From: Rhodanobacter sp. OK091 | GTDB taxonomy: Bacteria; Pseudomonadota; Gammaproteobacteria; Xanthomonadales; Rhodanobacteraceae | Assembly: GCF_900142825.1 (NCBI RefSeq) | Contig: NZ_FRCH01000001.1 | Coordinates: forward strand, 1-64,000 | Direction: 5' to 3' | DNA length: 64,000 nucleotides | Shown: piece after piece, positions 1 through 14,913 of the stretch | Layout: the number at the start of each line of letters is the position of its first letter | Numbering within the stretch: position 1 is the first letter of the stretch | Notes under the pieces: generated by a model | Databases searched by the model: none | What the model saw: only the letters and a program-made list of their open reading frames with translations | What the model was told of the DNA's origin: nothing | Made by a program: the position numbers and the translations under genes

Positions 1-73
1 ACCCCAACCACGACATCGCCCATCCGATAACGGCCAAGCCCAAGGCAAAGTTGGCAGCTGTCGTCCTCTTCAT
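1..73 (-). CDS. Partial hypothetical membrane protein, N-terminus only
   Basis: An ATG at 73 on the minus strand opens a frame that runs off the window edge. The 24 visible residues begin MKRTTAANFALGLAVIGWAM, a lysine/arginine start followed by a hydrophobic stretch, as in a first membrane helix or a signal peptide. Nothing more can be said without the upstream-contig sequence; a chance frame of this length is also possible. Confidence 0.35.
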   Translation of the reverse strand, partial: MKRTTAANFALGLAVIGWAMSWLG

Positions 74-446
74 ATGTTCAAGCCCTTAATTTCACCCGTG
101 AAATCGCACTATCTCGATCGGATAGGTTAGCGGTCCAACGTCCGTTATGGGTCGAAAACGGACATCGTCGAGCAACGCCCTGGACCACTTCATCACGACT
201 GCAAACGGCTGACCACTTTGGGCAGCGAACTGCCCACGGGGCAAATGGATGGCGAAGCTGGTCAGTTCATTGGCCTGAACTGGTCAGCTGTGATGGCAAT
301 GGGTGGTCGGTTCGGTGGCGATACGCAGAAATGATCCCAGGCACCTTTTCCCGACTTCATTAAACGCTCGGCTATCGGACGCCGACGGTTGTGGATGACT
401 AAGCCATGAGTGCCTAATTAACGTATCCGAAAAACCCGGGCCAGCT
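74..446. other. Gene-free stretch with short TGGTCAG repeats
   Basis: No convincing gene here. The stretch has several copies of TGGTCAG or its complement (about 209, 259, 281 and a weaker one near 303) and a perfect 7-bp hairpin at 219-236 (TGGGCAG, loop CGAA, CTGCCCA). Multiple short terminal repeats of this look occur at ends of IS21-family elements, so this may be an eroded IS end, but no transposase remnant was seen. Confidence 0.3.
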
Positions 447-484
447 CAGGCTCACTTATTGCCGTGAGAAAGTGACCTGACCCC
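447..484. repeat. Palindromic island element, copy 1 (inverted orientation)
   Basis: Imperfect copy of the element found at 2384, 7067 and 12220, in the opposite orientation: CTCACTTATTGCCGTGAGAA followed by AGTGACCTGACCCCGATC. It lies 50 bp downstream of the 3' end of the putative immunity gene. The two arms can form a hairpin. Confidence 0.6.
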
Positions 485-534
485 GATCTTTGTTTCAGGA
501 TCGAGGCAATACAAGACGCGCCCCTTTAATTTAT

Positions 535-888
535 CTACGCAGAGCACAAAAGCTTTAATTGAATATTCCTCAATGTTGCCTGTTCCGGCGTATCTATGGT
601 TCCTTCCGCTGTAACTCGATATGCTTGGCAGTCCTGCTCCGGACGCGGACGAATGAAGCAAGTGGCCGAATAAGTAAAATAGTGCAGTCCATCGCGATCA
701 TTACGGCGAACGGTTTCATTTTTACATGGCCCAAGAGTAGCTTTAAAAACATAATCTGTTGCTTTAATCTGCTTAATAAGCTCCATGCTGTTATTGTTAA
801 GATCAGGAGTGGAAGCTAACGCAACCGATTGAAAAAGCGCCGCGAATAAAAAGGCAGCCATGACACTATTAAAATAAATTTTAATCAT
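535..888 (-). CDS. Secreted cysteine-rich small protein, putative immunity protein for the Rhs toxin
   Basis: 117 residues. Residues 1-25 form a clear signal peptide (hydrophobic core FNSVMAAFLFAALFQSVALA, cleavage after ALA). The mature part has four cysteines (in GPCKN, ATCFI, QDCQA and LLCSA), enough for two disulfides, so a periplasmic fold is expected. It starts 21 bp after the stop of the Rhs-core gene and must share its transcript. Position directly behind a polymorphic-toxin C-terminus, plus export to the compartment where a peptidoglycan-cutting domain would act, suggests immunity. I recognise no family; function is inferred from context. Local base composition is AT-richer than in the core genes. 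Confidence 0.6.
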   Translation of the reverse strand: MIKIYFNSVMAAFLFAALFQSVALASTPDLNNNSMELIKQIKATDYVFKATLGPCKNETVRRNDRDGLHYFTYSATCFIRPRPEQDCQAYRVTAEGTIDTPEQATLRNIQLKLLCSA

Positions 889-909
889 AACAATTTCCTG
901 TAGAAAAAA

Positions 910-1866
910 TTACTGCTGACCTGCCTCATGAATATGATTTTGGTGATCCTCAGACACGCTAGGCAAAGGTTGTGAAACTCCGCCAGGGGTGTAAGTTTTT
1001 TCTTGGAATATTGGACCGAAATTTTCTTGAATATTTGGCTCATTCCTAAACGCATTCTGTAAAGAAGTAACGGCGTTATTGTTAGATTTATCGCCAACAT
1101 GTTCTCCATTAACTCTATTTATATCCACCGCTTTAGCAGAGTAATGATTACTGTGGATTGCATGTACGCCACCTGTAGTGCTATTAATATTAACAGATTG
1201 GACCCCCGATTTTGTAATAGCACTTTCAACCATGTTAGCAGTTTTTGTTGTCAGCGGTTGATTTGGGCTTGCTCCCGCCGGATTATCGTTCTTAAAAGTT
1301 ACGGCAGATACATACCCCGCTTGAACATTTCGGCCTATCGATGAATTTAGCTTGATGCCCTCCATTCCATTGACGGGTGGAGGCTGTGAATTCGCGCGAG
1401 GCAATACACTATCAATAGTTGAATGAACGCACATGCTGTCCACACATGTACTTTTACCAGTTGGGTCGGTATTCAAAATTGGGTTGTTGTTAACGTAATC
1501 GTACCGGCTGAAGTTGAAAACGTTACCAGGTGTCGGATCGATGGGGTCAGCACTCAGGAAGCGCCCCGTACTGGGATCGTAATAACGCGCCTGCATATAC
1601 ACGAGCCCAGTGTCCGGATCGTTCACATGCCCCGTATACCCAGGCCCGTTCGGCGCCGGGCTCATGCTCGCCACCGCAGTGCCATACGGCGCATAGTCGT
1701 AGGTGGCAATGATGGCGCCGCTGGCGTCGGCCTTAGCTAACACTGTGCCCTGCGGATCAGTGTAGTAGTAATGATGCGTCCCTGCGTGCAAAAAGCCAGA
1801 AGAAAACAGGACAAAAAAACCGCCAACCCACCGACGGCTAGACCACCTTTCCTTCCGATTGCACAT
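910..1866 (-). CDS. Short Rhs-core protein with C-terminal M15-like zinc peptidase domain
   Basis: 318 residues. Order: signal-peptide-like N-terminus (about 1-29, WVGGFFVLFSSGFLHA); a compact RHS-associated core (about 33-137) with the motifs GPGYTGHVNDPDTGLVYMQA, ARYYDPSTGRFLSADPID and DPTG, the usual junction of variable toxin tips; then a 180-residue C-terminus. That tip has H241-x6-D248 inside SNHYSAKAVDI and H311-x-H313 near the end, the zinc-ligand pattern (SxHxxGxAxD ... HxH) of D-Ala-D-Ala carboxypeptidase/M15-type murein peptidases. Full Rhs proteins are over 1000 residues, so this is an orphan core/tip with its own export signal. A good Shine-Dalgarno (AAGGGGAAGGG) precedes ATG 1866. 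Rhs core is certain; the peptidase call rests on motif reading. Confidence 0.75.
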   Translation of the reverse strand: MCNRKERWSSRRWVGGFFVLFSSGFLHAGTHHYYYTDPQGTVLAKADASGAIIATYDYAPYGTAVASMSPAPNGPGYTGHVNDPDTGLVYMQARYYDPSTGRFLSADPIDPTPGNVFNFSRYDYVNNNPILNTDPTGKSTCVDSMCVHSTIDSVLPRANSQPPPVNGMEGIKLNSSIGRNVQAGYVSAVTFKNDNPAGASPNQPLTTKTANMVESAITKSGVQSVNINSTTGGVHAIHSNHYSAKAVDINRVNGEHVGDKSNNNAVTSLQNAFRNEPNIQENFGPIFQEKTYTPGGVSQPLPSVSEDHQNHIHEAGQQ

Positions 1867-1905
1867 ATCCCTTCCCCTTGCATGCTCCGATGTCGTTGCA
1901 GGAGC

Positions 1906-1980
1906 CTACAACAAACTCTGACTTAAACTCTGACTTAGAATGCAAGTCGCCTCCCCCGTGAAGCGGATCTTGAACGTCAT
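1906..1980 (-). pseudogene. Truncated ParE/RelE-type toxin remnant
   Basis: An ATG at 1980 overlaps the antitoxin stop (ATGA). The frame begins MTFKIRFTGEAT, like the first strand of ParE/RelE toxins, then runs into unrelated sequence with a 12-bp direct repeat (AACTCTGACTTA twice) and stops after 24 codons. Family toxins have about 90-100 residues, so the toxin has lost its body, apparently at the junction with the Rhs locus. Confidence 0.5.
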
Positions 1981-2246
1981 ACCGAGACTTTCTTTGCCAT
2001 GGCCAATCGCGCTTCGAGCTTTTTCAGCACCGCACCCGACGAAAAGTACACCCCCGTACTCTTCGCCTGATCCCTCGAAGCCAGTCCACGGGAGATGAAG
2101 GCGGTCTGCTGCTGGCGCTGCTGAATGTGCGCCCGCAACGCGGACTCGACAAAGCCGGACAGACTTTCTCCGTCACGCAAGAGCTGTTCTGCAGCCTCGC
2201 GCAGAGCTGGCTCCACACGCAGCGAGGGGATGGTCGCGGTCTTCAT
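1977..2246 (-). CDS. Ribbon-helix-helix antitoxin-like protein
   Basis: 89 residues from the ATG at 2246, which follows an AGGAGG ribosome site. Sequence MKTATIPSLRVEPALREAAE opens like RHH/YlcI-YnfO-type antitoxins: a short N-terminal strand (TIPSLRV), a helix (LREAAEQLL), then GESLSGFVESALR, the second helix. The C-terminal tail is lysine-rich and would bind a toxin. Its partner at 1906-1980 is truncated, so it is now an orphan antitoxin; it may still repress its own promoter or neutralise a related toxin elsewhere. Confidence 0.7.
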   Translation of the reverse strand: MKTATIPSLRVEPALREAAEQLLRDGESLSGFVESALRAHIQQRQQQTAFISRGLASRDQAKSTGVYFSSGAVLKKLEARLAMAKKVSV

Positions 2247-2314
2247 GAAACCTCCTGATGCGATGCCATTGCGATACATAGTGGCGCATTCAGCGACAGG
2301 GGCCAATCGCACTG

Positions 2315-2367
2315 GCCCGGCATGGTATGTCGCCCGCTCCTCGCTCACGCCGGTTTGCGAACCGCGC
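2315..2367 (-). repeat. 53-bp sequence shared with the 3' end of the XAC0095-like gene
   Basis: 47 of 53 bases match 4167-4219. In both places one minus frame reads RGSQTGV-x-EERATYHAG. At 4167 this lies inside the gene; here it lies just upstream of the antitoxin, so it looks like the leftover 3' end of a deleted paralogue of that gene. Confidence 0.6.
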
Positions 2368-2383
2368 ACCTGTCGAGATCGCG

Positions 2384-2421
2384 GTCAGGTTCACTTTCTC
2401 ACGGCAGTAAGCGAACCTGAC
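2384..2421. repeat. Palindromic island element, copy 2
   Basis: 38 bp, arms GTCAGGTTCACTTTCTC and its imperfect complement around ACGGCAGT; preceded by GATCGCG. It sits 6 bp beyond the stop of the peptidase E-like gene and could act as its hairpin terminator. Confidence 0.75.
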
Positions 2422-2427
2422 CCTCTT

Positions 2428-3171
2428 TTAGCCCGCCGTCGGCAAGAACAATTTCCACTGGCCTTCGGAAACGACTTGAACGGCACCGTGATTCACGGCG
2501 ATGGCGGTCTGATCATCGATGGCATAGACCGGCGCCGGTATCTTGGCGGCCCATTTTTCAGCGTTCTCCAAGGAGGCATCCAGGTGATTCGGGTTATCGA
2601 GGTGCGGGATCAATGCAAAGTCGACCCACCCTGCTCCGTGGGCCGTGACCAGAAGGCTGGCGACCTCACCCTCTGCGGTGGTGAACGAGAAGTTCTCAGA
2701 CGTCAGCGCATCGCGATGACCACTGGGCGGCTGGGTGTAGTTTTCTGAAAATGTCGAAGACACCGCCATGCTCCCGGCGCTCACACCCACGTAAACCCAT
2801 TCATGTCGCAATGAAGGCAGCAGCTCGGCGAGGCCGGATCGACGCATCCAGTCAGCCAGATAGACAGGATCACCGCCCCACACCAACAGGGCATCCGCCT
2901 CCTCCACCAGGGGAACCCAATCTTCTTTGGCGAGGCTCGGCAAGGCGGTGAGTTCCAGAACGCCCAGCGACTTCCAGCCCAGTTCGCACAAAGGGCTTCG
3001 CGTTTTTCCAGCGAACGCCTGCCACGCCATGGCAGCATGGCGCGGATAGGCATACATGGCGGTGGGAATGAAGAGCGCGCTGCACTCGGCGATGGGCTTG
3101 CCCAACAGCTCGACCAGTGCGGCGTGGATGCTGGCGTTGGTGATGCCGCCAGACGTCAGAAGAAATTTCAT
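2428..3171 (-). CDS. Peptidase E-like (S51 family) protein
   Basis: 247 residues, the usual size for dipeptidase E / S51 class I glutamine-amidotransferase-like proteins. Visible motifs: LLTSGGIT at the N-terminus, LLVWGGDPVYLADWM, the nucleophile elbow GVSAGSMAVS with the serine at about 132, and a late histidine in LIPHLDN. Family members cleave Asp-X dipeptides or process small peptides in the cytosol; cyanophycinase relatives are alternatives. It is monocistronic here, with a 300-bp upstream stretch. Substrate is not deducible. Confidence 0.8.
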   Translation of the reverse strand: MKFLLTSGGITNASIHAALVELLGKPIAECSALFIPTAMYAYPRHAAMAWQAFAGKTRSPLCELGWKSLGVLELTALPSLAKEDWVPLVEEADALLVWGGDPVYLADWMRRSGLAELLPSLRHEWVYVGVSAGSMAVSSTFSENYTQPPSGHRDALTSENFSFTTAEGEVASLLVTAHGAGWVDFALIPHLDNPNHLDASLENAEKWAAKIPAPVYAIDDQTAIAVNHGAVQVVSEGQWKLFLPTAG

Positions 3172-3475
3172 GCGGTTTCCCTCGTTTCGGTGAGCGTGTT
3201 CAGCAACTCATAGGTCGACGAACGGCGTCTGCCGTATTCGACAAAGGGTCCGTTTTTCTTTTTCGGAAACCGGGGTCGGCGCGGTACACAGGGGAGGTGA
3301 TGTACCGCACCACCGGGTAGGCGCGTCAGGGGGGTAACGCGCCATGCCTTCAGGATCGAGGATGCGAGGACGTGAGCGAGGGCGAAAAACGTCGCTCAAA
3401 ACAAAACGGCCCCGGATGATTTCCGGAGCCGCTCTGATGATGCCAGCCATGCTGAGCGCTAGTCAGCAAACGGGG
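3172..3475. other. Gene-free stretch with hairpins
   Basis: Contains the promoter side of the peptidase E-like gene, an inverted pair GCGGTACA / TGTACCGC near 3275-3305 next to a CCGGGGTC motif, and the terminator at 3406-3430. A possible 80-codon minus frame here has arginine/proline-rich composition and no recognisable features, so I do not call it. Confidence 0.5.
3406..3430 (-). terminator. Rho-independent terminator of the 3476-3979 gene
   Basis: Stem CGGC-C-CCGG / CCGG-A-GCCG with loop ATGATTT, followed on the minus strand by GTTTTG. It lies 46 bp after the stop. The same stem with the same C-A mismatch terminates clpX at 63060-63085. Confidence 0.75.
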
Positions 3476-3979
3476 CTATTTCTTGCTCAGCTGTTCCGCG
3501 AGCTTGGTTCCAAAATCGACCATGTGCGCGACCTGATCGGGAGTGAAGCGGTATGCATCCTTGCAGATGCGAAGCTCGATTGACTTACTGCGTAGAAACC
3601 CGGCCAGCTGATCTGGCGTCAATGATCCCTGCCAGCGCTCTAGCACCTTTTTCGTCATCCGGACTTCATCGTAATAGAAGGGCGTCAGCTGCACGATCTC
3701 GCCGTCGACGAGCCAACGGGTGTCGTTGCATCGCAGATATCGCCAATGGTCACTTTTGAGCAGGATCTCCATATCGATGCGATGGACTTGCCCGTACTCT
3801 ACCCTGGCATCCCAGAGTATCAGCGGACCGCCCATGGCCAGCACATCAATAGACATTCGATCGCTTTCGACAAAGACCCTGCCAGGATCGAGCGTTAAGA
3901 CCCGTACGGTCGGCTGCCTCGCGATTGCCGCGAACGAGATGCTGAGCAAGATAGCCGCGAGAATGCTGGATAGCTTCAT
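3476..3979 (-). CDS. Hypothetical secreted protein
   Basis: 167 residues from ATG 3979 (ribosome site AGGGGAAA just upstream). Residues 1-21 (MKLSSILAAILLSISFAAIA) are a typical signal peptide with a cut before RQPTV. The mature protein has two cysteines (YLRCNDT and LRICKDA) and no membrane segment, so a periplasmic protein with one disulfide is likely. I do not recognise the family. It has its own terminator and a palindrome upstream, so it looks monocistronic. Confidence 0.65.
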   Translation of the reverse strand: MKLSSILAAILLSISFAAIARQPTVRVLTLDPGRVFVESDRMSIDVLAMGGPLILWDARVEYGQVHRIDMEILLKSDHWRYLRCNDTRWLVDGEIVQLTPFYYDEVRMTKKVLERWQGSLTPDQLAGFLRSKSIELRICKDAYRFTPDQVAHMVDFGTKLAEQLSKK

Positions 3980-4023
3980 GCCTATTTCCCCTGTGAGTTG
4001 TCCAGGGCGCACATTAATGGAAG

Positions 4024-4067
4024 CCGGGGTCGGAGTGCGCCGTTCTTTAAGGCAACACTGACCCCGG
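4024..4067. repeat. Palindromic CCGGGGTC element
   Basis: Arms CCGGGGTC-G-GAGTG and CACTGACCCCGG flank GCGCCGTTCTTTAAGGCAA. It resembles the 38-bp island element only in its GGTCAG/CTGACC ends and is probably a second REP-like family. It lies between two minus-strand genes, 38 bp past the stop of the upstream one. Confidence 0.55.
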
Positions 4068-4104
4068 TTTTGTCGGACGCCTGCTTCTCGTCTTGATGGA
4101 CCGG

Positions 4105-4749
4105 CTATTGGTAGGTAGGCAACTGCCGCGCGACATGCGACGCGTGGCCCGCGGGCAAACACGCTCGCCCCGCATGGTAGGTGGCCCGCTCTTCGCCCAC
4201 GCCGGTTTGCGAACCACGCGCGTGCCCGAGCCTCTGCGATTCCACCTGGCGGATGATCTCGCGCACCGCCCTCGCGTCGTTGAAGATGGCATCCCCCAAC
4301 ACCGACAGTGTGTGGTCGGCGAACTCGGCCTCATCACTGGCGATCACCACATCGCCATGGGCCACGATCATGGCGATCAGCCGGTTGAGCGTGTCGATCT
4401 GGTCCATGGTCATGCCGAAGCGGTAGCGCTCATCCGCGCCGCCGGGCATCTCCTCTGCAGGCTCCGCGCCGGCCTCGGCCCCAGCCGCAGCCTCGCTCTC
4501 GGACCGGTAGGCCGGCCACGACATCTCGTCCAACACCAGCCCCACCTGCTCGGCCAACAATTCCAGGCAGATCGCCACCTCGCCCACGCGAATCTCGGCG
4601 GTGCACTCCTGTTCCTCGTCCGCCCTCCGCGGTTGCGCCAGATGCGACAGGAATTCGGCATACTCGCGCAGCTTCTTCAGCCGCAGTTGGCTGTCCTCCG
4701 GCAGGAAATAGCCCATCGTTTCCAGATCTTCCGAATCGAACTTAGACAT
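4105..4749 (-). CDS. XAC0095-like cytosolic protein of unknown function
   Basis: 214 residues from ATG 4749, behind GAGGAGG. The N-terminal third (MGYFLPEDSQLRLKKLREYA, then EFLSHLAQPR) resembles the XAC0095 family of small Xanthomonadales proteins. The middle is acidic with an alanine/glutamate-rich linker (about 98-115) and then helices (MDQIDTLNRLIAMIVAHGD). The C-terminal 40 residues (RGSQTGVGEERATYHAG) match the leftover sequence at 2315. No catalytic motif is visible. It is preceded by a promoter and a structured leader that look like a C4 antisense-RNA arrangement, so its expression is probably controlled in trans or in cis by RNA. Confidence 0.65.
   Translation of the reverse strand: MSKFDSEDLETMGYFLPEDSQLRLKKLREYAEFLSHLAQPRRADEEQECTAEIRVGEVAICLELLAEQVGLVLDEMSWPAYRSESEAAAGAEAGAEPAEEMPGGADERYRFGMTMDQIDTLNRLIAMIVAHGDVVIASDEAEFADHTLSVLGDAIFNDARAVREIIRQVESQRLGHARGSQTGVGEERATYHAGRACLPAGHASHVARQLPTYQ
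4167..4219 (-). repeat. 53-bp sequence shared with 2315-2367
   Basis: Inside the 3' end of the XAC0095-like gene. See the partner entry: the pair suggests two former copies of this gene family in the island. Confidence 0.6.
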
Positions 4750-4802
4750 GGTCGCCTCCTCATTCCATCGAAGTGCCCGTCCACGGCATGACGACGGACG
4801 GG

Positions 4803-4974
4803 GTGTCGGGAGGTTCGAAACCGCTAAGAGCCGGCGGGCGTATTCCCCCGAAGGGTGTTGTATTAGCCGCCCTCCCGACGCAGGAATCACGTCGGCTTGC
4901 ACCTGCGAACAGGTACAAAAAACCCACCGGTTTGTCGGAGGTGGGTACCGCTCTTAGGGGAGTTTCGACGCTCC
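4803..4974 (-). ncRNA. C4-antisense-like structured leader RNA
   Basis: On the minus strand an early segment (4974-4944) reads GGAGCGTCGAAACTCCCC then TAAGAGCGGTACC. A late segment (4834-4803), ending about 55 bp before the start codon, reads GCTCTTAGCGGTTTCGA. They are complementary in two collinear blocks: CTAAGAGC with GCTCTTAG and TCGAAAC with GTTTCGA, 15 bp in all. Between them lies a hairpin (ACCCACC ... GGTGGGT, 4922-4946) with six Ts, a terminator. So a short RNA can end before the gene and carry two blocks able to pair with the gene's own leader, the design of phage C4 antisense RNAs. Confidence 0.5.
4922..4946 (-). terminator. Terminator inside the leader
   Basis: ACCCACC / GGTGGGT stem, loop TCCGACAAACC, then T6 on the minus strand (4917-4922). 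It would end the short leader RNA and allow readthrough into the XAC0095-like gene. Confidence 0.7.
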
Positions 4975-4983
4975 TTGAGTTGG

Positions 4984-5012
4984 AGTCTGCTATTGCAGCT
5001 GGAGGGTGTCAA
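4984..5012 (-). promoter_or_regulatory. Sigma-70 type promoter of the leader RNA
   Basis: Perfect -35 TTGACA (5012-5007), 17-bp spacer, weak -10 CAGACT (4989-4984). The predicted start near 4977 is just ahead of the GGAGCGTCG segment that begins the antisense-like part. Confidence 0.55.
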
Positions 5013-5075
5013 CAGCTGCGCTTTGTCCACTGCGCTGCGCACCTGACGCACAGAAGTGGGAACTCCTCGGAATTA

Positions 5076-5128
5076 TGCAAACGCCTGAACTAAGCCGCGC
5101 CGCGAAGCGGCGGCGGCTTGTGCATATT
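5076..5128 (-). repeat. Integron attC-like relic B
   Basis: Minus strand: AAGCCGCCGCCGCTTCGCGG then CGCGGCTTAGTTCAGGCGTT. This is very close, as I remember it, to the central hairpin and right arm of aadA-type attC sites (AAGCCG...CGCTTCGCGGCG...CGGCTTAACTCAAGCGTT). The outer core is degenerate (GTTTGCA instead of GTTRRRY), so recombination activity is doubtful. Confidence 0.5.
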
Positions 5129-5225
5129 CCACTCGAAAGTCGGCCAGTATGATTAGTCTCTGCCGACGCCAATCGGCAGAAACCGATCCGTTGCAGCCGG
5201 TGGCGAACGGCTTCTTTCGAGAAGA

Positions 5226-5291
5226 CCCGTCTTCAGCGCTGGAGTTAAGCGGCGGCGAAGCCCGAAGCCGTCCGCCTTGGACGAATAGTCA
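5226..5291 (-). repeat. Integron attC-like relic A
   Basis: Begins at the stop codon of the 116-residue gene. Minus strand: CTGACTATTCGTCCAAGG, a GC-rich hairpin, then CGCTTAACTCCAGCGCTGA. The left part parallels CTAACAATTCGTTCAAG and the right part CGGCTTAACTCAAGCGTTAGA of attC sites. Overlap of a gene's stop with the inverse core is typical of cassettes. Confidence 0.45.
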
Positions 5292-5639
5292 GGGATCAAG
5301 CGCGACATGCGCTGATGCTGCAGCAGCGATAACAGATTGCCAAGCGGTTAGCGAAAGGAGCTGCTCAACGTTGGGCACATGCTCCCCGATCTGCGTAAGT
5401 GCACTCTCAAACGCATTGTTGAAGTTACTTAGGATGACAATTTCTGTGGGGCTGAATGCCGAACGGAATAGTTTGCTGTCCGGATGAAAGTCATCGGCCC
5501 ACCAACAAGCAAACTCGTCGTAAGCATAGCCTTCGCTTTTGCAGACCTCAGTTTGAAATCTACGTTGCTCCTCAGCCGACGCGAAGAATTTCAGCAAGTG
5601 GATGCGCGACGTTCTAAACGTAAGTGCATGCTCATCCAT
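5289..5639 (-). CDS. Hypothetical protein, cassette-like gene
   Basis: 116 residues, ATG 5639. Soluble, with many aromatic residues (FACWWADDFHP) and no signal peptide or known motif. The sequence LSNFNNAFESALTQIGEH suggests an amphipathic helix near residue 75-90. Its start lies about 15 bp after a GTTGGGG core-like sequence and its stop merges into attC-like relic A, which is how integron cassette genes are arranged. Function unknown; small cassette proteins next to defence genes are sometimes anti-phage or regulatory, but nothing here shows that. Confidence 0.55.
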   Translation of the reverse strand: MDEHALTFRTSRIHLLKFFASAEEQRRFQTEVCKSEGYAYDEFACWWADDFHPDSKLFRSAFSPTEIVILSNFNNAFESALTQIGEHVPNVEQLLSLTAWQSVIAAAASAHVALDP

Positions 5640-5648
5640 TCAACTAGG

Positions 5649-5723
5649 CCCCAACGTTTGACATGAGCAGCCGCAAATGGGCGAAGTCCGCTTGTGAATG
5701 CCCGCTCGATGGGGGAGTTAACC
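5649..5723 (-). repeat. Possible attC-like site C between the ATPase and the small gene
   Basis: Minus strand: the ATPase stop is inside GGTTAAC, followed 66-75 bp later by CGTTGGGG and then the next gene. The interior has short complementary arms (GAGC/GCTC, GGGC/GCCC). Layout and spacing fit an attC, but the match to RYYYAAC/GTTRRRY is imperfect at both ends. Confidence 0.3.
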
Positions 5724-7031
5724 CACCCGTTCCGCCAGTGCGTGCAGGAAGCGAGCTTCGAACTCTTCGTGCATCGCGGTATCGGCTTGAAGCAATGACA
5801 CCACTTTATCAACAAGTTCGCTCTTGTTGTACGAGAGTCCGTTCCTAGAAATCACATCGCCAACAATCGTGATTTCGGAGCCTGCGCCAAAGATCTTGTC
5901 GATGATAGCGGGTGGGTAGTAGTACTCGATGCCATTCTTCGGCCAAACAACGATGTTCCCTGTGGGGATGCCCATCGCCACTAACTGGCCTGGTAGGCCA
6001 GCTGAGTGAACGGAGTCCAAAACAACAAAGATTCTGTCCTTATATGGGCTCCGCTGTATGTCGGAGAAGATCCCTTTGACGACGTTTAGAATTTCCTTGA
6101 TGCGGCTGTCCGAATTCGCGGAAATTACACTGACTTGAGATTCTGGATGCCGCAGAGAGACTACGCGCTCGATGAACTTGTCGTCGCACTTTCCTTCAAC
6201 GAGGACGATCGCCGAGGGCAAGTACAAGGTCTCGAATCGATTCCCAAGAAGGAAGAAATGAATTCCGTTGAAGTCCGACTGACTTTGGATCGGTTGAATC
6301 GAAATTTCATCGCCAACCTTTTGTACCGTGTAGTTGTTCGAAATTCGAGCCCGGTCTAGGAAGATCGTGGAATGCGTGGCGAATACTAGTGTCTTGATGT
6401 GAGGGAAGTACCGAGCGCGATGCTCCCGATCGAAGAGAAAGTCAGCCAGAATTCCTTGGGCTTCTGGACTGATCCCGAGTTCGGGCTCATCGATTAGGAA
6501 GGTATCGTAGTCAGCGTCAAGAAGACTCGTTACCAAAGTCGTGATCAGTCTGAATCCCGAACTTGTGTAAGAGATGTTGTGCCCGCCACACGAGATGTAC
6601 TTCTGAGACATCGAGTTATCTTCGACGGTTTGGCGCCATTCAAGCTCCACGCCTAGAAGTGTTTTGATGATCTCAGCGAGACGGATGCGCTGACCGTCAG
6701 AGAGCTCTGCGATAGCTTGTTGCAAGTTTACCGGCGAATTGTCGATGTTCTGCTGCTGCTGTTGCCACTGCTGCACGAACTGGCTCCATCTATCGCTTCG
6801 TCTATTCTGATTCGGCGTGAAGTGGCCAAGAAGATTGAAGTTTTGATAACGTGCGGGACCCAAATATGAGGCGGACTGCCCCCACTGTTGCGTCAATGAC
6901 TTCAAGAGGAACGACTTACCGCAATTGTTTCGCCCAACAAGTACGGAGTACTCCGAGTCGCGAATGGCTTGGAGTGAGGCGGCCGAAGAGTCGGCGAAAT
7001 GCGTTCCTGGTTTTTGGTCGTATTGGTACAT
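5718..7031 (-). CDS. OLD-like AAA/ABC-type ATPase with C-terminal TOPRIM-like region
   Basis: 437 residues from ATG 7031. Walker A GRNNCGKS (about 33-40), a glutamine-rich insert (WQQQQQ, about 90), ABC-signature-like LSDGQRIRLAE (about 110-120), Walker B FLIDEPELG (about 178-186) and the H-loop ATHST (about 218-222). The C-terminal third has VLVEGKCDDKF (about 277), the first motif of a TOPRIM fold, but the expected DxD is FVVLDSV. OLD-family nucleases combine exactly these two modules and many are anti-phage (Class 1 OLD, PARIS- or Gabija-like). It lies between cassette relics and the reverse transcriptase. Defence role is inferred; nuclease activity is uncertain because of the altered second motif. 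Confidence 0.7.
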   Translation of the reverse strand: MYQYDQKPGTHFADSSAASLQAIRDSEYSVLVGRNNCGKSFLLKSLTQQWGQSASYLGPARYQNFNLLGHFTPNQNRRSDRWSQFVQQWQQQQQNIDNSPVNLQQAIAELSDGQRIRLAEIIKTLLGVELEWRQTVEDNSMSQKYISCGGHNISYTSSGFRLITTLVTSLLDADYDTFLIDEPELGISPEAQGILADFLFDREHRARYFPHIKTLVFATHSTIFLDRARISNNYTVQKVGDEISIQPIQSQSDFNGIHFFLLGNRFETLYLPSAIVLVEGKCDDKFIERVVSLRHPESQVSVISANSDSRIKEILNVVKGIFSDIQRSPYKDRIFVVLDSVHSAGLPGQLVAMGIPTGNIVVWPKNGIEYYYPPAIIDKIFGAGSEITIVGDVISRNGLSYNKSELVDKVVSLLQADTAMHEEFEARFLHALAERVG

Positions 7032-7066
7032 GGACGCTCGCGAAGGGTGGGCTAACAAAGATCGGA

Positions 7067-7104
7067 GTCAGGTTCACTTTCTCACGGCAGTAAGTGAACC
7101 TGAC
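7067..7104. repeat. Palindromic island element, copy 3
   Basis: Best-preserved copy: GTCAGGTTCACTTTCTC, ACGG, CAGTAAGTGAACCTGAC, with GATCGGA in front. It lies 12 bp beyond the reverse transcriptase stop and 36 bp upstream of the ATPase start, exactly between the two defence genes. Confidence 0.8.
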
Positions 7105-7115
7105 CCTGATTGTCC

Positions 7116-8423
7116 TCAAGATCTATCCCGGGCGCGAATGGCGCGGTCAAGAGCCGACCACCGTCGCGCGACCTGTCCGGCAATGGCAGGGCTCTTCGCG
7201 ATTTTTGCGGCCCGATGAGCATAACTAACGAAATTCTGGTGCCCGGTGAATGTGTAGGCGCGATTCAATTTACCACGTTTAATCGACACACTAGTCTTCG
7301 CAAGACCCGCGTTCCTAGCCGCTTTAGACCGGGCAATGTCGGCCACGCGCACACCCTTTCGAAGACGACTGTAGAAACGACCAACACTGCCCGAACGAAG
7401 CAGTATTTTTTTCCCATTGAAGGTCAAACCCAGATATTGAAGTGGTTTTTGGATGCTTGTTCCGGGAGGGCCGAAAGTGCATTCTTCCAGCTTCTCCTTC
7501 TGTACTTCCAACTTGATTTCCGGGACGAGAGTTTCGATAAATGCTTTAGCGGCAACAGCGCGATGCGGCGGCACGACACACAGCACGTCATCGCAATAGC
7601 GACGGTAGAACCCGCCCCAAGCGAAAACCTGATTTGCCACGCGCTCGTCGAATTCAAGCATGTAGATGTTCGAAAGGGTGGCGCTGATGGGCGTGCCTTG
7701 GGGGATGCCTTTAGCATCGGGATTGACCTTCAGATGTTTGCCCTCCACGACGAGCTTACGAAATTGTTCGGGCGAGCAAATGCGCTTTCGGCCCGAGGCC
7801 TTCGGTGCATAGCGACTGATGCCAAACAAGGCGTAGAGCACGACTTGCTCGACCTTGGCATTACGGGTCAACGAGTGGTAGATGCTGTAATGATCGGCAG
7901 GTAGAGCATTCCTCCCTAACACCTCACTCCATTTCTTTTTCAGCAACTGATGGTCCAGAGCATCGAAAAAGCCGCTGATGTCATAGGCGAGCGCTGTGCA
8001 AGGGCGATGCGCTTCAATCCAGGTAAAAGCGTCGAGCGCAAAATGGACGTTGCAGCGGCCATCGCTAGTCCGAAATGCGGTCACGGCTTCTCCAAGCCCG
8101 CGAGCAGTGAGCAGCGCCTCGTAGCGTTTGGTGAGCTGCTGGGAGTAATAGGCATAGAGCGCCGCATCTCGGTGGGACGCGTAGCAGATGGGTCGCGTCT
8201 TTTTCTTGACTTGGAACCCGCTGGCATCCCGCCAAACCTTTTTCGTGGTCACGCTGGCCATAATCAAGGGCAGAAACTGCCACTTGGCCACGGTTGCCGG
8301 GGTCGAGACGAGTTTCAGCAGAGCTTCCCGGGGGATCCGCTCATCGAGGTGTAAATAGGACCTTGGGCGAAGTGGGTCGGCAGCCATGGGAGTTAACTGA
8401 GGGAGAGGGTCGCGGCAACCCAT
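7116..8423 (-). CDS. Antiviral reverse transcriptase, DRT2 (UG2)-like
   Basis: 435 residues. Start ATG 8423 is chosen because GAGGGAG sits 5 bp upstream; an in-frame TTG at 8495 would overlap the RNA. RT motifs: YLHLDERIP (about 23), KTRPICYASHRDAALYAYYS (about 76-95), YDISGFFDALDH with catalytic Asp (about 147-158), GIPQGTPISATLSNIYM (about 239-255) and YCDD (276-279), all catalytic residues present. There is no maturase or endonuclease domain, so it is not a group II intron or retron RT. The YLHxD opening and the ASHxD block fit the Unknown Group/DRT2 lineage as I know it. DRT2 RTs copy an upstream pseudoknotted RNA into tandem repeats that encode a toxic protein during phage infection. Exact DRT class needs a profile search. 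Confidence 0.75.
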   Translation of the reverse strand: MGCRDPLPQLTPMAADPLRPRSYLHLDERIPREALLKLVSTPATVAKWQFLPLIMASVTTKKVWRDASGFQVKKKTRPICYASHRDAALYAYYSQQLTKRYEALLTARGLGEAVTAFRTSDGRCNVHFALDAFTWIEAHRPCTALAYDISGFFDALDHQLLKKKWSEVLGRNALPADHYSIYHSLTRNAKVEQVVLYALFGISRYAPKASGRKRICSPEQFRKLVVEGKHLKVNPDAKGIPQGTPISATLSNIYMLEFDERVANQVFAWGGFYRRYCDDVLCVVPPHRAVAAKAFIETLVPEIKLEVQKEKLEECTFGPPGTSIQKPLQYLGLTFNGKKILLRSGSVGRFYSRLRKGVRVADIARSKAARNAGLAKTSVSIKRGKLNRAYTFTGHQNFVSYAHRAAKIAKSPAIAGQVARRWSALDRAIRARDRS

Positions 8424-8656
8424 ACTAGCTCCCTCAGCTTCCGGAATCCCGAAGGTATCCTCGAAAGTGGCACGCCACCAACACCGCGGTCGCAATCATA
8501 CTGATGATAAAGTCATCACTGAGGAAACTACTCGTGGACATCGCTGCCCATCTGATAGCTAGTCAGCTATTCGCCTTGATGTGGGCGGGCGGCGGGGTGA
8601 CCCCGTCGACCGTTGACATCGCAACAGACTCCCGCGTCACTGTTGCCGACGCGGTA
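8424..8656 (-). ncRNA. Candidate DRT2-type noncoding RNA upstream of the reverse transcriptase
   Basis: The 430-bp space between the RT and the divergent gene holds a strongly structured minus-strand segment. At its 5' end is a perfect H-type pseudoknot: CCGCGTC (8654-8648) pairs with GACGCGG (8638-8632), and GCAACAG in that loop (8646-8640) pairs with CTGTTGC (8627-8621). Further hairpins: CGGGG-TCA-CCCCG (8605-8593), ATAGCT-GACT-AGCTAT (8570-8555), TGATGA-CTTTA-TCATCA (8518-8502). A minus reading frame is open for 126 nt between stops at 8565 and 8436. DRT2 systems are known to have a pseudoknotted RNA just upstream of the RT. Ends are estimates. Confidence 0.55.
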
Positions 8657-8661
8657 AGCAA

Positions 8662-8690
8662 AAGTTAGGGGCTCACGGCGGCCACGTCAA
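8662..8690 (-). promoter_or_regulatory. Candidate promoter of the noncoding RNA
   Basis: -35 TTGACG (8690-8685), 17-bp spacer, -10-like TAACTT (8667-8662, 3 of 6 consensus). The start would fall at about 8655, right at the first strand of the pseudoknot. The weak -10 keeps confidence low. Confidence 0.35.
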
Positions 8691-8851
8691 CAACCTTCCT
8701 ACCCATGTGTCCCTATATCCATCCTTTTAACTTCCTCCGCCCCGGTTCCGACGTGGGTTTCGGCGTGTGAGACCTGCTCGCCTCAGGACGAGCCTTGTCA
8801 GTTCACTCCCAGTCCCCATGTGGACAGAGACCCCCATCGAACAGGGCAACG

Positions 8852-9772
8852 ATGACCACCATCTATCGCGTCGGCACTTGGCAGGAACTCTTTGCCCTCC
8901 CCAACTTTGAGAAGGATCCAGTGCATAAGGATCTGATCAGCAAGGGGGACCTCGTCAGTGAGTACGAGATGACGCCCAGCGACGGGCTCAGGCCATGCGG
9001 CATTCTCAAGTGCGAGACCGATCATCGTCACGGCTACATCGTTCGGCTCCCAGATCAGCGGTTGAGTCATGTGGGTCGAAATTGCGGGAAAACACATTTC
9101 GGCGAATCCTGGTCCCGCGTCCGCAAGGCCCTTACCGCTGCACAGAAACTGGCCGCCAAGACCAAGGCTATCGACGAACTCAAGGCCGCGATCCACACCG
9201 AATTGAATCGCTGGCCTGTGTTTGATGCACCGGCATTCCTGGCTGCACGATTGGCCCTGACCCACTTCGATCGCCTGCCAGAGAAACTTCGGTCCAGCCT
9301 GGAAAGCCGGGCTCAGAGCGGTGACGTCGCTGTTCATGGATGGCGCACACCAACGGACGAGGACAAGCGCCTAGCCAAACTGCATGACCAGAGGCTCCCC
9401 ACCTCCATCCGGTTTGATCGCGGCCCCCTTCAGGGGTTGCGCGGAATCAACCGCAAGACGCGGATCGACTACCTGATCGATCGGCACGGCCCATCGCTGA
9501 TCCAAGAAGCCCAGTCGCTGGTCGACGCACCGGACATTCGATCGGACGACTTGAACACGATGCTGCGTCGCCTCACTGCGTTTCCTGATGGCCTCGACAC
9601 CGGCATCAAGCACCTACTCACCTTCCTGACCGATGCCAACCTCAAGGTGGTTACGTACCTGCTGGCCGCCCAAGATCTCGGCATCGTCGGTCTTCGGTAC
9701 GATGTTGGTGATCAGAACGGCTTCGTTCTCTCGTACAAAACTTCCTCCATGTCTCCGCGCGCCACTCGATGA
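8852..9772 (+). CDS. Hypothetical protein with a Cys/His-rich N-terminal motif
   Basis: 306 residues from ATG 8852 (AGGG upstream). An N-terminal block contains RPCGILKCETDHRHGYIV and, about 20 residues on, SHVGRNCGKTHFGESW; the three cysteines and nearby histidines could bind zinc. The rest is helical with many charged residues and no membrane segment. I do not recognise the family. Its stop overlaps the start of the next gene (ATGATG), so the two are translationally coupled and probably function together. It is transcribed away from the DRT2-like unit. Confidence 0.65.
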   Translation: MTTIYRVGTWQELFALPNFEKDPVHKDLISKGDLVSEYEMTPSDGLRPCGILKCETDHRHGYIVRLPDQRLSHVGRNCGKTHFGESWSRVRKALTAAQKLAAKTKAIDELKAAIHTELNRWPVFDAPAFLAARLALTHFDRLPEKLRSSLESRAQSGDVAVHGWRTPTDEDKRLAKLHDQRLPTSIRFDRGPLQGLRGINRKTRIDYLIDRHGPSLIQEAQSLVDAPDIRSDDLNTMLRRLTAFPDGLDTGIKHLLTFLTDANLKVVTYLLAAQDLGIVGLRYDVGDQNGFVLSYKTSSMSPRATR

Positions 9773-10503
9773 TGCAAACACTGACTTCCCTCATCCCTGA
9801 CGTCGACGTGTTGGTTAGCCTCTCTCAGGAGGAGCTCGCAGGGGTCGTCCTGCAGTTGGCCAAAGAGCACCGACAGAACAACAAAATTCACATTCAGGCG
9901 ATCGCCTCACACATCAACGGCACGGTCGGAATGAACAACGGCTACCCGCAGAAGCGCCTCCAGGAGGCCGAGATCGCACTATCTGAAGCCTGGAACTGGC
10001 TCACCGTCCAAGGTCTTCTGATCCCCGAACTGGGAATTAATGGTAGCAACGGCTGGATGCTGCTCGGTCGACGTGCGGAGGCGCTGCTCGTCAACAACGG
10101 ATTTAAGAGCTACGCGCAAAGCGTGAACTTCCCAAAATCACTTCTGCACCCAGCAATTGCCGATGAGGTTTGGATTGACCTTGCGCGAGGCGATCTTGAA
10201 ACGGCTGTATTCAAGTCATTTCGAGCGGTCGAAATCGCGGTGCGCGCAGCGGGCAAATTTGAGGATACGGATGTGGGCACGCAGCTCATGCGCAAAGCCT
10301 TTGACAAAACAACAGGACCACTGACTGATCTCCAGCAGCCTGAGGGAGAGCGTGAGGCGTTGGCGCACCTTTTCGCGGGCGCCATCGCCTCGTACAAGAA
10401 TCCCCATTCACATCGTACCGTGACGATAAGTGACACGGGAGAGGCCCAAGAGATGGTGATCCTTGCAAGTCATCTGCTGCGCATCGTCGATAGCAGGCAG
10501 TGA
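9769..10503 (+). CDS. TIGR02391 (Ymh)-like protein with HEPN-like motif
   Basis: 244 residues. The C-terminal half carries VFKSFRAVEIAVRAAGKF and then ASYKNPHSHRTV, the hallmark of TIGR02391/Ymh-like proteins. The KNPHSH string matches the R-N-P-x-S-H form of the HEPN RNase RxxxxH motif with Lys in place of Arg. The N-terminal half looks like a winged-helix or helical sensor region (KIHIQAIASHINGTVG, then EAWNWLTVQGLLIPE). HEPN proteins of this type are often toxic RNases in defence systems. Overlap with the upstream gene suggests a two-component unit. Whether the Lys variant is active is unknown. Confidence 0.7.
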   Translation: MMQTLTSLIPDVDVLVSLSQEELAGVVLQLAKEHRQNNKIHIQAIASHINGTVGMNNGYPQKRLQEAEIALSEAWNWLTVQGLLIPELGINGSNGWMLLGRRAEALLVNNGFKSYAQSVNFPKSLLHPAIADEVWIDLARGDLETAVFKSFRAVEIAVRAAGKFEDTDVGTQLMRKAFDKTTGPLTDLQQPEGEREALAHLFAGAIASYKNPHSHRTVTISDTGEAQEMVILASHLLRIVDSRQ

Positions 10504-10625
10504 TCGCTAACTTCACCGCGAGGTAATTGGCGAAAAACCGCGTTGCGAAACGGGTCAGTGTGAGCTGGCCCTTGTTTGATGGATAAGCTTTATTACAACT
10601 GGTTCGTGGGCTCAAGGGTGTGCGG

Positions 10626-11933
10626 CTAATTATTTAAGTCTGCGCGCGCCGCCTTCAGAATGTCCTTCAACAATTCAGCAAATTTATCTGGCGACATTTT
10701 TTTAAGCACACGCGCTAATGCGTCATGAATCGGACTTACCGGCTCATCGTTTGCTATGACTCTGACCGGATTGGCGCCGAAGTTCTCAATAGCGGTACGT
10801 CGAAGCAAATCAAGCATCTCTTTATCTTCTCCCATCTCCGAACGGTACCCAACGAAGGAAAGCGCAGAGGCTTCCTTAAAGGCATAGTCTTCTGTGAGAC
10901 GGGAAAGTTGCCCGTGTTTCCTTGCCGCGAACCAAGTCAGCCAAATACCTGGACTGAGAATTAGTACGTGTGTCACATAAGTGAACACACGCTCAAGAGG
11001 TGGCGCTGCGGAAGCAGTGGATGTGTCTTTGATCGGGGACGCCAGAGCAATCGTCTTAAATCCAAATAATGCCAGAACATCTCCCAGCGATATCAGGGCT
11101 CCTAGGAACAAAAGAATCAATCCAGCGACAAATATTTTTGTCCAAATCGATTGATCTCGCTCCAAGCTTTCCCGCCGATCCTTGAATGATTTGGCGAGGC
11201 CAATCTTGCTGGCACCCTGAAGCGTTTCTTCAACAAAATTTCGCTTCCGTACAAACTCGTCAATCAGCTCTTTCTGAGTGCTGACGTCTCCGTTCAGGTC
11301 AGTGACCAAGTCATCAACCACAATCTTCGCTTGAGTTGCGGCTGAAGCGCTAGCAGTCGCGTTGGTCTGAGCATTACCAGCTTCGCGCTCGTGCCCCTGA
11401 ATTCTTGCTACCGATTCCTTGACCGCGCTTTCAAAGTTTGAAACAGCCCCTTGTGAGGATGTCGCAGCTTGTTGCGCGCTTACCGCTAACTGGGCGGCAT
11501 TTTGGATGAGCTGAACATTGGCTCTAACCTCCTTGATGGTCGGCGCTGTAACGATGCTTGAACCCTGTGTTGGATCCGGCGCAACCCACGCTATCAGTTT
11601 GCGAATTTCCCAAAGGGCGATCAGCATCAACTGAGGCCGATTATTCCCGAGGAACCAGTCGGGACCGTTTCCAATGCCTTGCTGCACGTAACTCTGGATA
11701 GTATTGATCTGCTGAGTGATGTTTGGCCAAGTCAACGACTTCATAGCGGGATCAACTTTATTAATTTCCGCGTATTGGAGGCCAGATATACAAAGCGTGA
11801 ACCAGTCCAAAATGCTTGATACCGGTATTTCATTGCCCCCCGAGTCTTTAATCACATTGGGTAACTTCGAGGCGAATTCCTCCCATTGGATTTTTAATCC
11901 AAGCAGCTCGTTGGCTTGCGGCATTTCACTCAT
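10626..11933 (-). CDS. Coiled-coil protein with two transmembrane helices
   Basis: 435 residues. The N-terminal 110 residues are soluble. Residues about 125-250 form a long alanine/glutamine/serine-rich coiled coil. Two membrane helices follow (about 268-290, IFVAGLILLFLGALISLGDV; about 320-345, VTHVLILSPGIWLTWFA). A cytoplasmic tail then has RLTEDYAFKEASALSFVGYR, a motif seen in several uncharacterised two-TM coiled-coil proteins (DUF6161-like, tentative). Its position beside defence genes suggests a membrane-acting effector or sensor, but no effector domain is visible. Upstream is an AT-rich promoter region. Confidence 0.6.
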   Translation of the reverse strand: MSEMPQANELLGLKIQWEEFASKLPNVIKDSGGNEIPVSSILDWFTLCISGLQYAEINKVDPAMKSLTWPNITQQINTIQSYVQQGIGNGPDWFLGNNRPQLMLIALWEIRKLIAWVAPDPTQGSSIVTAPTIKEVRANVQLIQNAAQLAVSAQQAATSSQGAVSNFESAVKESVARIQGHEREAGNAQTNATASASAATQAKIVVDDLVTDLNGDVSTQKELIDEFVRKRNFVEETLQGASKIGLAKSFKDRRESLERDQSIWTKIFVAGLILLFLGALISLGDVLALFGFKTIALASPIKDTSTASAAPPLERVFTYVTHVLILSPGIWLTWFAARKHGQLSRLTEDYAFKEASALSFVGYRSEMGEDKEMLDLLRRTAIENFGANPVRVIANDEPVSPIHDALARVLKKMSPDKFAELLKDILKAARADLNN

Positions 11934-12219
11934 AGATCCCCCGTTAGTATGACATGACTGGTGTGGGCTAATTTAACGTAAACTCTCGGCGAAAACGCTG
12001 GTTATCGCGCACTTGCAAACAGAGTTAAAAAAATGGTGTGAGATTTTTCTGTCATCTGAAAGAAAAAGTGGTATTCGAAAACTCGGGTAGCGAAAACTCG
12101 AGTCATTGTGCGCTTTTGAAGACTGTATAAACTGAGGAACACAGTTGGGAGGCCGTTTGTCGTCTGCACCCCTCTCACTCACCCCTCCAAACGATCAAAC
12201 CGCAGATCCGAAGATCGGG
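11934..12219. other. AT-rich gene-free stretch
   Basis: Contains the presumed promoter of the coiled-coil gene and a short direct repeat, CGAAAACTCG, about 12 bp apart near 12075-12102. Base composition is clearly lower in GC than the core genes. No gene is visible on either strand. Confidence 0.5.
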
Positions 12220-12257
12220 GTCAGATTAACTTTCCCATTGCAGGTAAGTGAACCTGC
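12220..12257. repeat. Palindromic island element, copy 4 (diverged)
   Basis: GTCAGATTAACTTTCCCATT then GCAGGTAAGTGAACCTGC, preceded by GATCGGG. More mismatches than copies 2 and 3. It lies 33 bp past the ChaN-like stop and marks the right edge of the island. Confidence 0.65.
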
Positions 12258-12289
12258 CCCAATAGTTTTCGCCACTGCGGCCAAAACCT

Positions 12290-14587: not shown

Positions 14588-14847
14588 CGTCATCCCGGCG
14601 AAGGCCGGGATCGCAGTTGCTCGTGCAGTTGCTCGTGCGAAAGACCGGATGGATGACTGGCTTTGTTGCTGAAGAGCGATTCCGGCCTTCGCCGGAATGA
14701 CGATATTCGGTTTTGCTCGTCATCCCGGCGGAGGCCGGAGAAGTGTTTCAACAGCGAAGCTGGTCATCGCCGTTGCTCGTGCGAAAGACCGGATGGATGA
14801 CTGGCTTTGTTGCTGAAGAGCGATTCCGGCCTTCGCCGGAATGACGA
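14588..14847. repeat. REP-like cluster with a perfect 76-bp direct duplication
   Basis: Hairpin units CGTCATCCCGGCGAAGGC and TCCGGCCTTCGCCGGAATGA alternate here. The stretches 14628-14703 and 14772-14847 are identical over 76 bp, separated by 68 bp. Part of the 420-bp gene-free interval upstream of fabV; no gene is visible in it. Confidence 0.8.
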
Positions 14848-14913
14848 CATGAGGGAACGAGGCATTCCGAGGGAGCGACTTCGACTGAAGCCCACTTCGG
14901 AATCGCCACACGC

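Follow-up and report, generated by a model that had tools for sequence, protein, structure and literature searches.

Does a reverse transcriptase gene of Rhodanobacter sp. OK091, together with the DNA just upstream of it, form an anti-phage DRT2 system, and which gene would be encoded by the repeats that such a system makes? The gene was examined in a 64,000-nucleotide (nt) stretch (contig NZ_FRCH01000001.1, positions 1 to 64,000), referred to here as the window, whose coordinates are used throughout. The locus is very probably a DRT2 (UG2) anti-phage neo-gene system from a clade with a variant jump motif, the jump motifs being short words at the two ends of the RNA template. An initial annotation had described a DRT2-like enzyme with an upstream pseudoknotted RNA; that observation is confirmed and its interpretation is partly supported, while the template and neo frame reported below were absent from it.

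The reverse transcriptase and its relatives

7116-8387, minus strand: DRT2 reverse transcriptase (RT), 423 amino acids (aa), running from ATG 8387-8385 to a stop codon at the low-numbered end

The minus-strand open frame holding the RT extends over 7116-8495, and the ATG at 8387-8385 was taken as the real start because the homologue starts point there. Using the NCBIfam model NF041746 (Drt2), it was found that the RT scores 466.8 bits, above the curated cut-off of 390. Both PADLOC Drt2 models were top-ranked (Drt2, E=1.5e-142, 473.7 bits), the best non-Drt2 family being UG17 at 80.1 bits, with Drt9 at 48.0 bits. In phmmer comparisons, three solved Drt2-type sequences aligned with the RT over its residues 6-408 or 6-409 (E 1e-92 to 2e-90); we take them to be the K. 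pneumoniae protein, as its length of 425 aa agrees. The YCDD motif (residues 264-267) and the catalytic Asp block (135-142), previously noted as intact, are unvaried in an alignment of the window RT with those of loci L039, L040, and L041. Two further blocks on which the initial assignment relied, YLHxD and ASHxD, are present as YLHLD and ASHRD, and RVT_1 is the sole Pfam domain in the RT, in agreement with the claim that a maturase domain is lacking. On these profile and motif comparisons the RT is a genuine member of the DRT2 (UG2) family, as first proposed. Two other identities were rejected: group II intron maturase (61.5 bits against a model cut-off of 300) and retron (St85 model, 42.6 bits against a cut-off of 235). 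An AlphaFold2 model of the RT built from four sequences was poor (predicted local distance difference test score [pLDDT] of 41.3) and was not used.

Matches to the RT at E<=1e-30 were identified in 5 of 233 genomes of the host family, representing 4 of its 26 genera; in the order and class samples, 4 of 398 and 3 of 369 genomes matched, with the window's own genome included in each count. The RT search yielded 37 loci in genome contigs, 28 in plasmid records, and 3 in phage records, and from the plasmid and phage matches three plasmid stretches were taken into the locus set. Scanning IMG/VR with the alignment of the window clade gave a single distant relative. Three homologues (L039, L040, and L041) are 59 to 65% identical to the window RT, each with an upstream RNA block, and in a tree of 45 RTs they form a single clade with the window (support 100/99). 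L042 is the sister of this clade (100/99), yet it was flagged as a long branch. The window clade falls within a 19-row group (84/94, drawn open) alongside K. pneumoniae-like E. coli and Oxalobacteraceae loci. The RT of L044 entered the tree without its N-terminal part, as this locus had been cut at the wrong place.

The predicted template and neo frame

In the window, L039, L040, and L041, the DNA upstream of the RT is kept from a 5' hairpin to the RT start. This block is predicted to be a noncoding RNA (ncRNA), within which a template for tandem-repeat complementary DNA (cDNA) can be delimited.

about 8655 to 8388, minus strand: predicted DRT2 ncRNA, about 265 nt, a block kept in four loci between the 5' hairpin and the start of the RT; ends predicted
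8496-8624, minus strand: predicted template of 129 nt for the tandem-repeat cDNA
8619-8624, minus strand: jump motif 1, TTGCGA
8490-8495, minus strand: jump motif 2, TTGCGA
8613-8618, plus strand: -35 element TTGACA of the predicted junction promoter, identical in 4/4 loci
8508-8513, plus strand: TAAAGT, -10 element of the same predicted promoter, brought to 18 nt from TTGACA only by concatenation
8496-8624, plus strand: predicted neo frame without stops, one unit of 43 codons; the frame begins at 8498
8521-8524 and 8534-8536, plus strand: putative GAGG and plausible GTG start for the neo frame

In the window, TTGCGA is found twice, 129 nt apart, with 6/6 positions matching, and TGTCAA, the antisense of TTGACA, lies just inside the first copy. 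The words common to both template ends are ATTGCA in L040, ATTAC in L041, and TTG alone in L039. When antisense copies of the template are placed head to tail, the window reads TTGACA-N18-TAAAGT at the junction; the corresponding -10 sequences are TATACT in L039 and TAAACT in L040 and L041. The units are 129 nt, and one frame of the three, the same in each locus, is stop-free across the junction in 4/4 loci, with stops in the remaining two frames in all four. Both promoter and neo frame are predicted from the repeat junctions; the chromosome itself contains neither. The neo units of the homologues are 43 to 45% identical to that of the window. Hydrophobicity is outside the rules of the scan described below and hence formed a separate check. 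The window Neo has a grand average of hydropathy (GRAVY) of 1.15, compared with -0.57 and -1.39 for the other frames. Among 500 random open frames per locus, the number that reached the observed value was 0 for the window, 0 for L039, 7 for L040, and 0 for L041. AlphaFold2 gave a single helix (residues 2-32) for one Neo unit, a weak hint at most (pLDDT 73.5, predicted template modeling score 0.37).

The upstream sequences were scanned for TTGACA with at least 5/6 matches, a spacer of 16 to 18 nt, and TAnnnT with at least 4/6 matches, joined by a unit of 90 to 156 nt that is divisible by three, is bounded by a shared word of at least 3 nt, and holds an open frame. Dinucleotide shuffles of the upstream sequence reached the observed score in 0 of 3,000 trials for the window, 9 for L039, 1 for L040, and 1 for L041. 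Among 592 half-overlapping 430-nt segments of the window, scanned on both strands, 14 gave any hit and 3 scored at least 15; the segment scoring 16 is the RNA locus. Widening the unit range to 45 to 240 nt produced no higher score in the four loci, with one tie at 14, of a loose form, in L039. A jump between ATGTC repeats 78 nt apart, present in 4/4 loci, would also leave an open frame and was rejected by eye, as no -10 element stands at a usable distance from TTGACA.

Across the DRT2 loci, 26 of 45 matched, compared with 2.55 expected; the scan covered 45 of the 51 loci, omitting L033 and L035 to L038 (partial or weak matches) and L046, and the near-copies L004, L005, L007, and L015 are counted among the 26. 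Eight hits (L003, L019, L025, L026, L027, L043, L045, and L049) are individually weak, their scores being reached by 11 to 30 of 400 shuffles. The positive control, E. coli L051 (571 bits to the solved Drt2 chains), gave ACA, a 117-nt unit, and TTGACA-N17-TATAAT, which is the published layout. L044 was counted as a miss, but this result is void because the locus had been cut at the wrong place; once re-anchored, it matched with ACAG, 111 nt, and TTGACA-N17-TATAAT. L028, L029, L032, and L034 were cut 78 to 111 nt inside the RT, so that their misses rest on approximately 330 to 360 nt of upstream sequence. No unit was found by the default rule in the Pseudomonas loci L008 to L010, and a looser rule anchored on the 3' pseudoknot described below gave two weak candidates, both in L009, among L042 and L008 to L010.

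Several points weigh against a neo gene in the window. The spacing of 16 to 18 nt and the TAnnnT pattern were fixed after the four loci had been read by eye, and these loci are related, so the counts are not independent. TAAAGT matches at only 4/6 positions, the spacer is 18 rather than 17 nt, and the two motif copies of L039 share TTG alone at fixed register. Neo hydrophobicity is less marked elsewhere, the observed value being reached by 70 (L003), 81 (L012), 43 (L047), and 29 (L051) of 500 random frames. A frame open in all four loci arises in 816 of 20,000 column shuffles (approximately 4%), so openness alone is weak. Variable columns number 20, 19, and 19 at the three codon positions of the four loci, without synonymous bias; therefore, selection on the Neo protein is not shown. 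The last two points also favor another explanation, in which the DRT2-clade RT makes tandem-repeat cDNA that itself acts, the frame being incidental, as in the repetitive cDNA of DRT9 and DRT10, described without a neo gene in the available text of PMC12632851. We regard this as improbable, since four loci combine a junction promoter with an open, hydrophobic frame and the RT scores far higher with Drt2 than with Drt9.

The sister locus L042, in which no unit was found under default or looser rules, is a further point against a neo gene. Together with the rare and patchy matches in the host family, it would fit a decaying locus whose RT is intact and whose ncRNA or neo unit no longer works in the host genome. 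Such decay seems very improbable here, given that the motif copies of the window agree at every position and that the RT reading frame is open over its full length. A neo-gene system remains the preferred reading.

The upstream RNA, proposed mechanism, and flanking DNA

8662-8690, minus strand: putative ncRNA promoter TTGACG-N17-TAACTT, with TTGA in 4/4 loci and TAnnnT at N17 in 2/4; start predicted
8632-8654, minus strand: 5' handle hairpin, CCGCGTC 8654-8648 with GACGCGG 8638-8632, the first helix of the 5' pseudoknot
8621-8646, minus strand: second helix of the 5' pseudoknot, GCAACAG 8646-8640 with CTGTTGC 8627-8621, pairing the handle loop with jump motif 1
8395-8439, minus strand: long "tower"-like 3' hairpin, with an 11-bp stem (8439-8429 with 8405-8395)
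8483-8487, minus strand: 5' strand of the 3'-domain pseudoknot, GCGGT, matching G155-C159 of K. pneumoniae by position after jump motif 2
8412-8416, minus strand: GCCGC, the 3' partner of GCGGT in this pseudoknot, located in the long-hairpin loop and matching G250-C254 of K. pneumoniae

Rfam at gathering scores gave no match at 8388-8700. A -35-like TTGACG had been noted at a position from which transcription would begin at the pseudoknot; it lies at 8690-8685, approximately 35 nt before the 5' hairpin, its TTGA is unvaried in 4/4 loci, and the conserved RNA begins about where that claim placed it. A TAnnnT -10 element at N17 is present in the window (TAACTT, 8667-8662) and L039 and absent in L040 and L041.

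The two perfect 7-bp helices of the 5' pseudoknot are in the window sequence as claimed (8654-8621), but comparison among homologues separates them. The first, which occupies the same place as the K. pneumoniae 5' handle (PMC12039810), is paired in 100% of cells over the four loci, both sides having changed in 3/7 pairs. The second is paired in 70.4% of cells with no two-sided changes, and the pairing of the loop with the flank was equalled in own-letter shuffles 53 times of 20,000 for the window, 1,551 for L039, 719 for L040, and 4,015 for L041. By this comparison the second helix is weak in the homologues and not reliably conserved. In the initial interpretation this 5' structure was the functional DRT2 pseudoknot. 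Its perfection in the window, which few shuffles equal, and its location at the predicted 5' boundary of the template speak for that view; it is nevertheless most unlikely, given the fate of the second helix and because the published DRT2 pseudoknot, G155-C159 with G250-C254 in K. pneumoniae according to the available portion of PMC12596737, maps to the 3' domain. The available text of PMC12039810 sets the template limits at 29-148, putting the second ACA at approximately 149-151.

A counterpart of that pairing is present in the window, 8487-8483 with 8416-8412, with an alternative register one step over (CGCGG/CCGCG). The long hairpin whose loop holds its 3' strand has a stem paired in 100% of cells in the four loci, 9/11 pairs being unvaried. 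The pseudoknot was sought in 15 chosen loci, namely 14 of the 26 scan hits (omitting L005, L007, L015, L017, L019, L020, L022, L025, L026, L027, L043, and L045) and L006, whose unit was found by the looser rule alone. Pairing is possible in 14 of the 15, compared with a mean of 6.4 and a maximum of 13 for shuffled loops (2,000 shuffles), and L048 is the sole locus without it. Matched changes were identified in L002 and L006 (GTGGC/GCCAC) and in L049 (GACTG/CAGTC). The predicted pseudoknot common to the window and K. pneumoniae DRT2 is this 3'-domain pairing. A stem with jump motif 2 as its right half, corresponding to SL2 of K. pneumoniae, was not found in common to the four aligned loci by a reading by eye only.

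Combined, these features suggest how the system may work. From the promoter at 8690-8662, an RNA of approximately 265 nt would be transcribed and held by the RT through the 5' handle hairpin and a 3' scaffold of long hairpin plus pseudoknot. Upon infection the RT would copy the template 8624-8496. At the TTGCGA of the template 5' end, the new cDNA end TCGCAA would re-pair with TTGCGA 8495-8490 to start the next round, and repeated jumps would give antisense repeats of 129 nt. Once these are double stranded, every junction would put TTGACA 18 nt from TAAAGT, so that the array could be transcribed, and translation of the stop-free frame would yield a Neo protein, long and hydrophobic, that halts the cell. 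What the sequence itself shows is the RT identity, a conserved upstream RNA, both copies of the motif, the promoter sequence at the junction, a frame that is open and hydrophobic, and the 3' pseudoknot. By analogy with the K. pneumoniae system, the RNA would be bound by the RT and prime from its own 3' end, phage would trigger synthesis, a second strand would be made, and the array would be transcribed and translated into a Neo protein that arrests growth.

Adjoining the RT on the same strand is an AAA_21 ATPase gene (5718-7058, minus strand), whose product weakly matches AriA, Old, GajA, PtuA, and the retron Eco8 effector. A partnership of the RT with this ATPase was rejected, as tblastn found the ATPase in 0 of 50 other loci, many of which have little flanking DNA. 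A 49-nt palindromic repeat resembling repetitive extragenic palindromic (REP) elements lies between the two genes (7059-7107), with further copies at 446-475 (inverted), 2376-2424, and 12212-12260, the last only 65% alike. The G+C content per kb is 48 to 63% over positions 1-12000, lying below 59% in 10 of the 12 kb, compared with 58 to 68% at 12 to 20 kb, an island-like composition around the RT. An Rfam match to sRNA-Xcc1 (4797-4879, minus strand, 76.4 bits) falls inside a frame with an XAC0095 domain (4105-4902). An RHS-repeat-like fragment was identified by eye at 910-1866 (minus strand), and two 82-nt copies at 14625-14706 and 14769-14850 are 98% identical, with inverted repeats alongside.

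Comparison with known systems

A literature search found no paper linking DRT2 with Xanthomonas, supplements being outside the search, and a search combining UG2, reverse transcriptase, and Xanthomonas gave nothing on the subject, judged by the listing. The word "Xanthomon" is absent from the available text of PMC11100668 and PMC12039810. A published tree may already include the window clade. What is new here is the predicted template and neo frame with TTGCGA in place of the published ACA.

As far as the available text of PMC12039810 and PMC11100668 describes it, an ACA motif flanks the K. pneumoniae template on each side, and joining its antisense copies end to end creates TTGACA-N17-TATAAT together with a single frame free of stops; Neo is reported as hydrophobic (PMC12039810). 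The window shares with that system (PMC12039810, PMC11100668, and PMC12596737) the RT family and nearly its length (423 compared with 425 aa) and an RNA just upstream of the RT (about 265 compared with 280 nt), with a 5' handle hairpin, a mid-RNA template, and short matching motifs at both template ends. In both, TTGACA and the -10 come together only where repeats meet, the unit length is a multiple of three and leaves one hydrophobic frame open, and a five-pair pseudoknot follows directly after jump motif 2. The differences are in the jump motif, TTGC(GA)/TTAC in the window clade and ACA in K. pneumoniae; in the unit, 129 nt in the window compared with 120 nt, although 129 nt is also found among 42 close homologues in the published data available; and in the window's 18-nt spacer (17 in K. 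pneumoniae), weaker -10, and GTG start. Because its jump sites are TTGCGA and not ACA, the window was not filed in the KpnDRT2-type ACA-jumping subgroup. The initial expectation of a different RNA is borne out by the jump motif, the length of the unit, and the spacing of the promoter but not by the DRT2 layout, which is kept. By the same scan, the E. coli DRT2 loci L050 and L051 have this layout too, with an ACA motif, a 117-nt unit, and an N17 spacer. The 5' handle loop is 8 to 10 nt in the window clade and 4 nt in the folds of L002 to L004, L011, L050, and L051, and in the window, unlike in K. pneumoniae, it pairs with jump motif 1.

DRT9 and DRT10 (UG17) belong to other RT families; together with telomerase RNA, they have in common with DRT2, in the published text available, repetitive reverse transcription from a bound RNA. 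The available text of PMC12632851 describes a stem-loop or pseudoknot as the template boundary element of telomerase RNA, and the pairing predicted in the window between handle loop and jump motif 1 offers a lead, not a result, toward a boundary of this kind. Other jump words identified by the scan in L047, L012, L019, and L022 were AGAT (Photobacterium), CAG (Mannheimia), and GTTG (Paenibacillus), and CAA was read by eye alone in Pseudomonas L008 to L010; the words at these other DRT2 loci hint that the word drifts by clade. We tentatively propose, at somewhat less than even confidence, that the jump signal is any short word identical at both template ends, drifting by clade rather than fixed as ACA, and that the handle loop in the window clade additionally holds the 5' copy, as a telomerase-like boundary element. 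If so, divergent DRT2 loci without an annotatable neo gene may carry one, readable once the demand on the motif is relaxed; the available text of the preprint describing neo (PMC11100668) predicts RNAs in more divergent DRT2 clades, finds Neo annotation more challenging there, and suggests alternative mechanisms. Once ACA is no longer demanded, a complete neo unit can be predicted in the window from an RNA that does not follow the ACA pattern. This makes it directly testable whether the matching of the two copies, and not their sequence, programs the jump, and it offers a hidden gene that can be checked in a bacterial family that seldom has DRT2.
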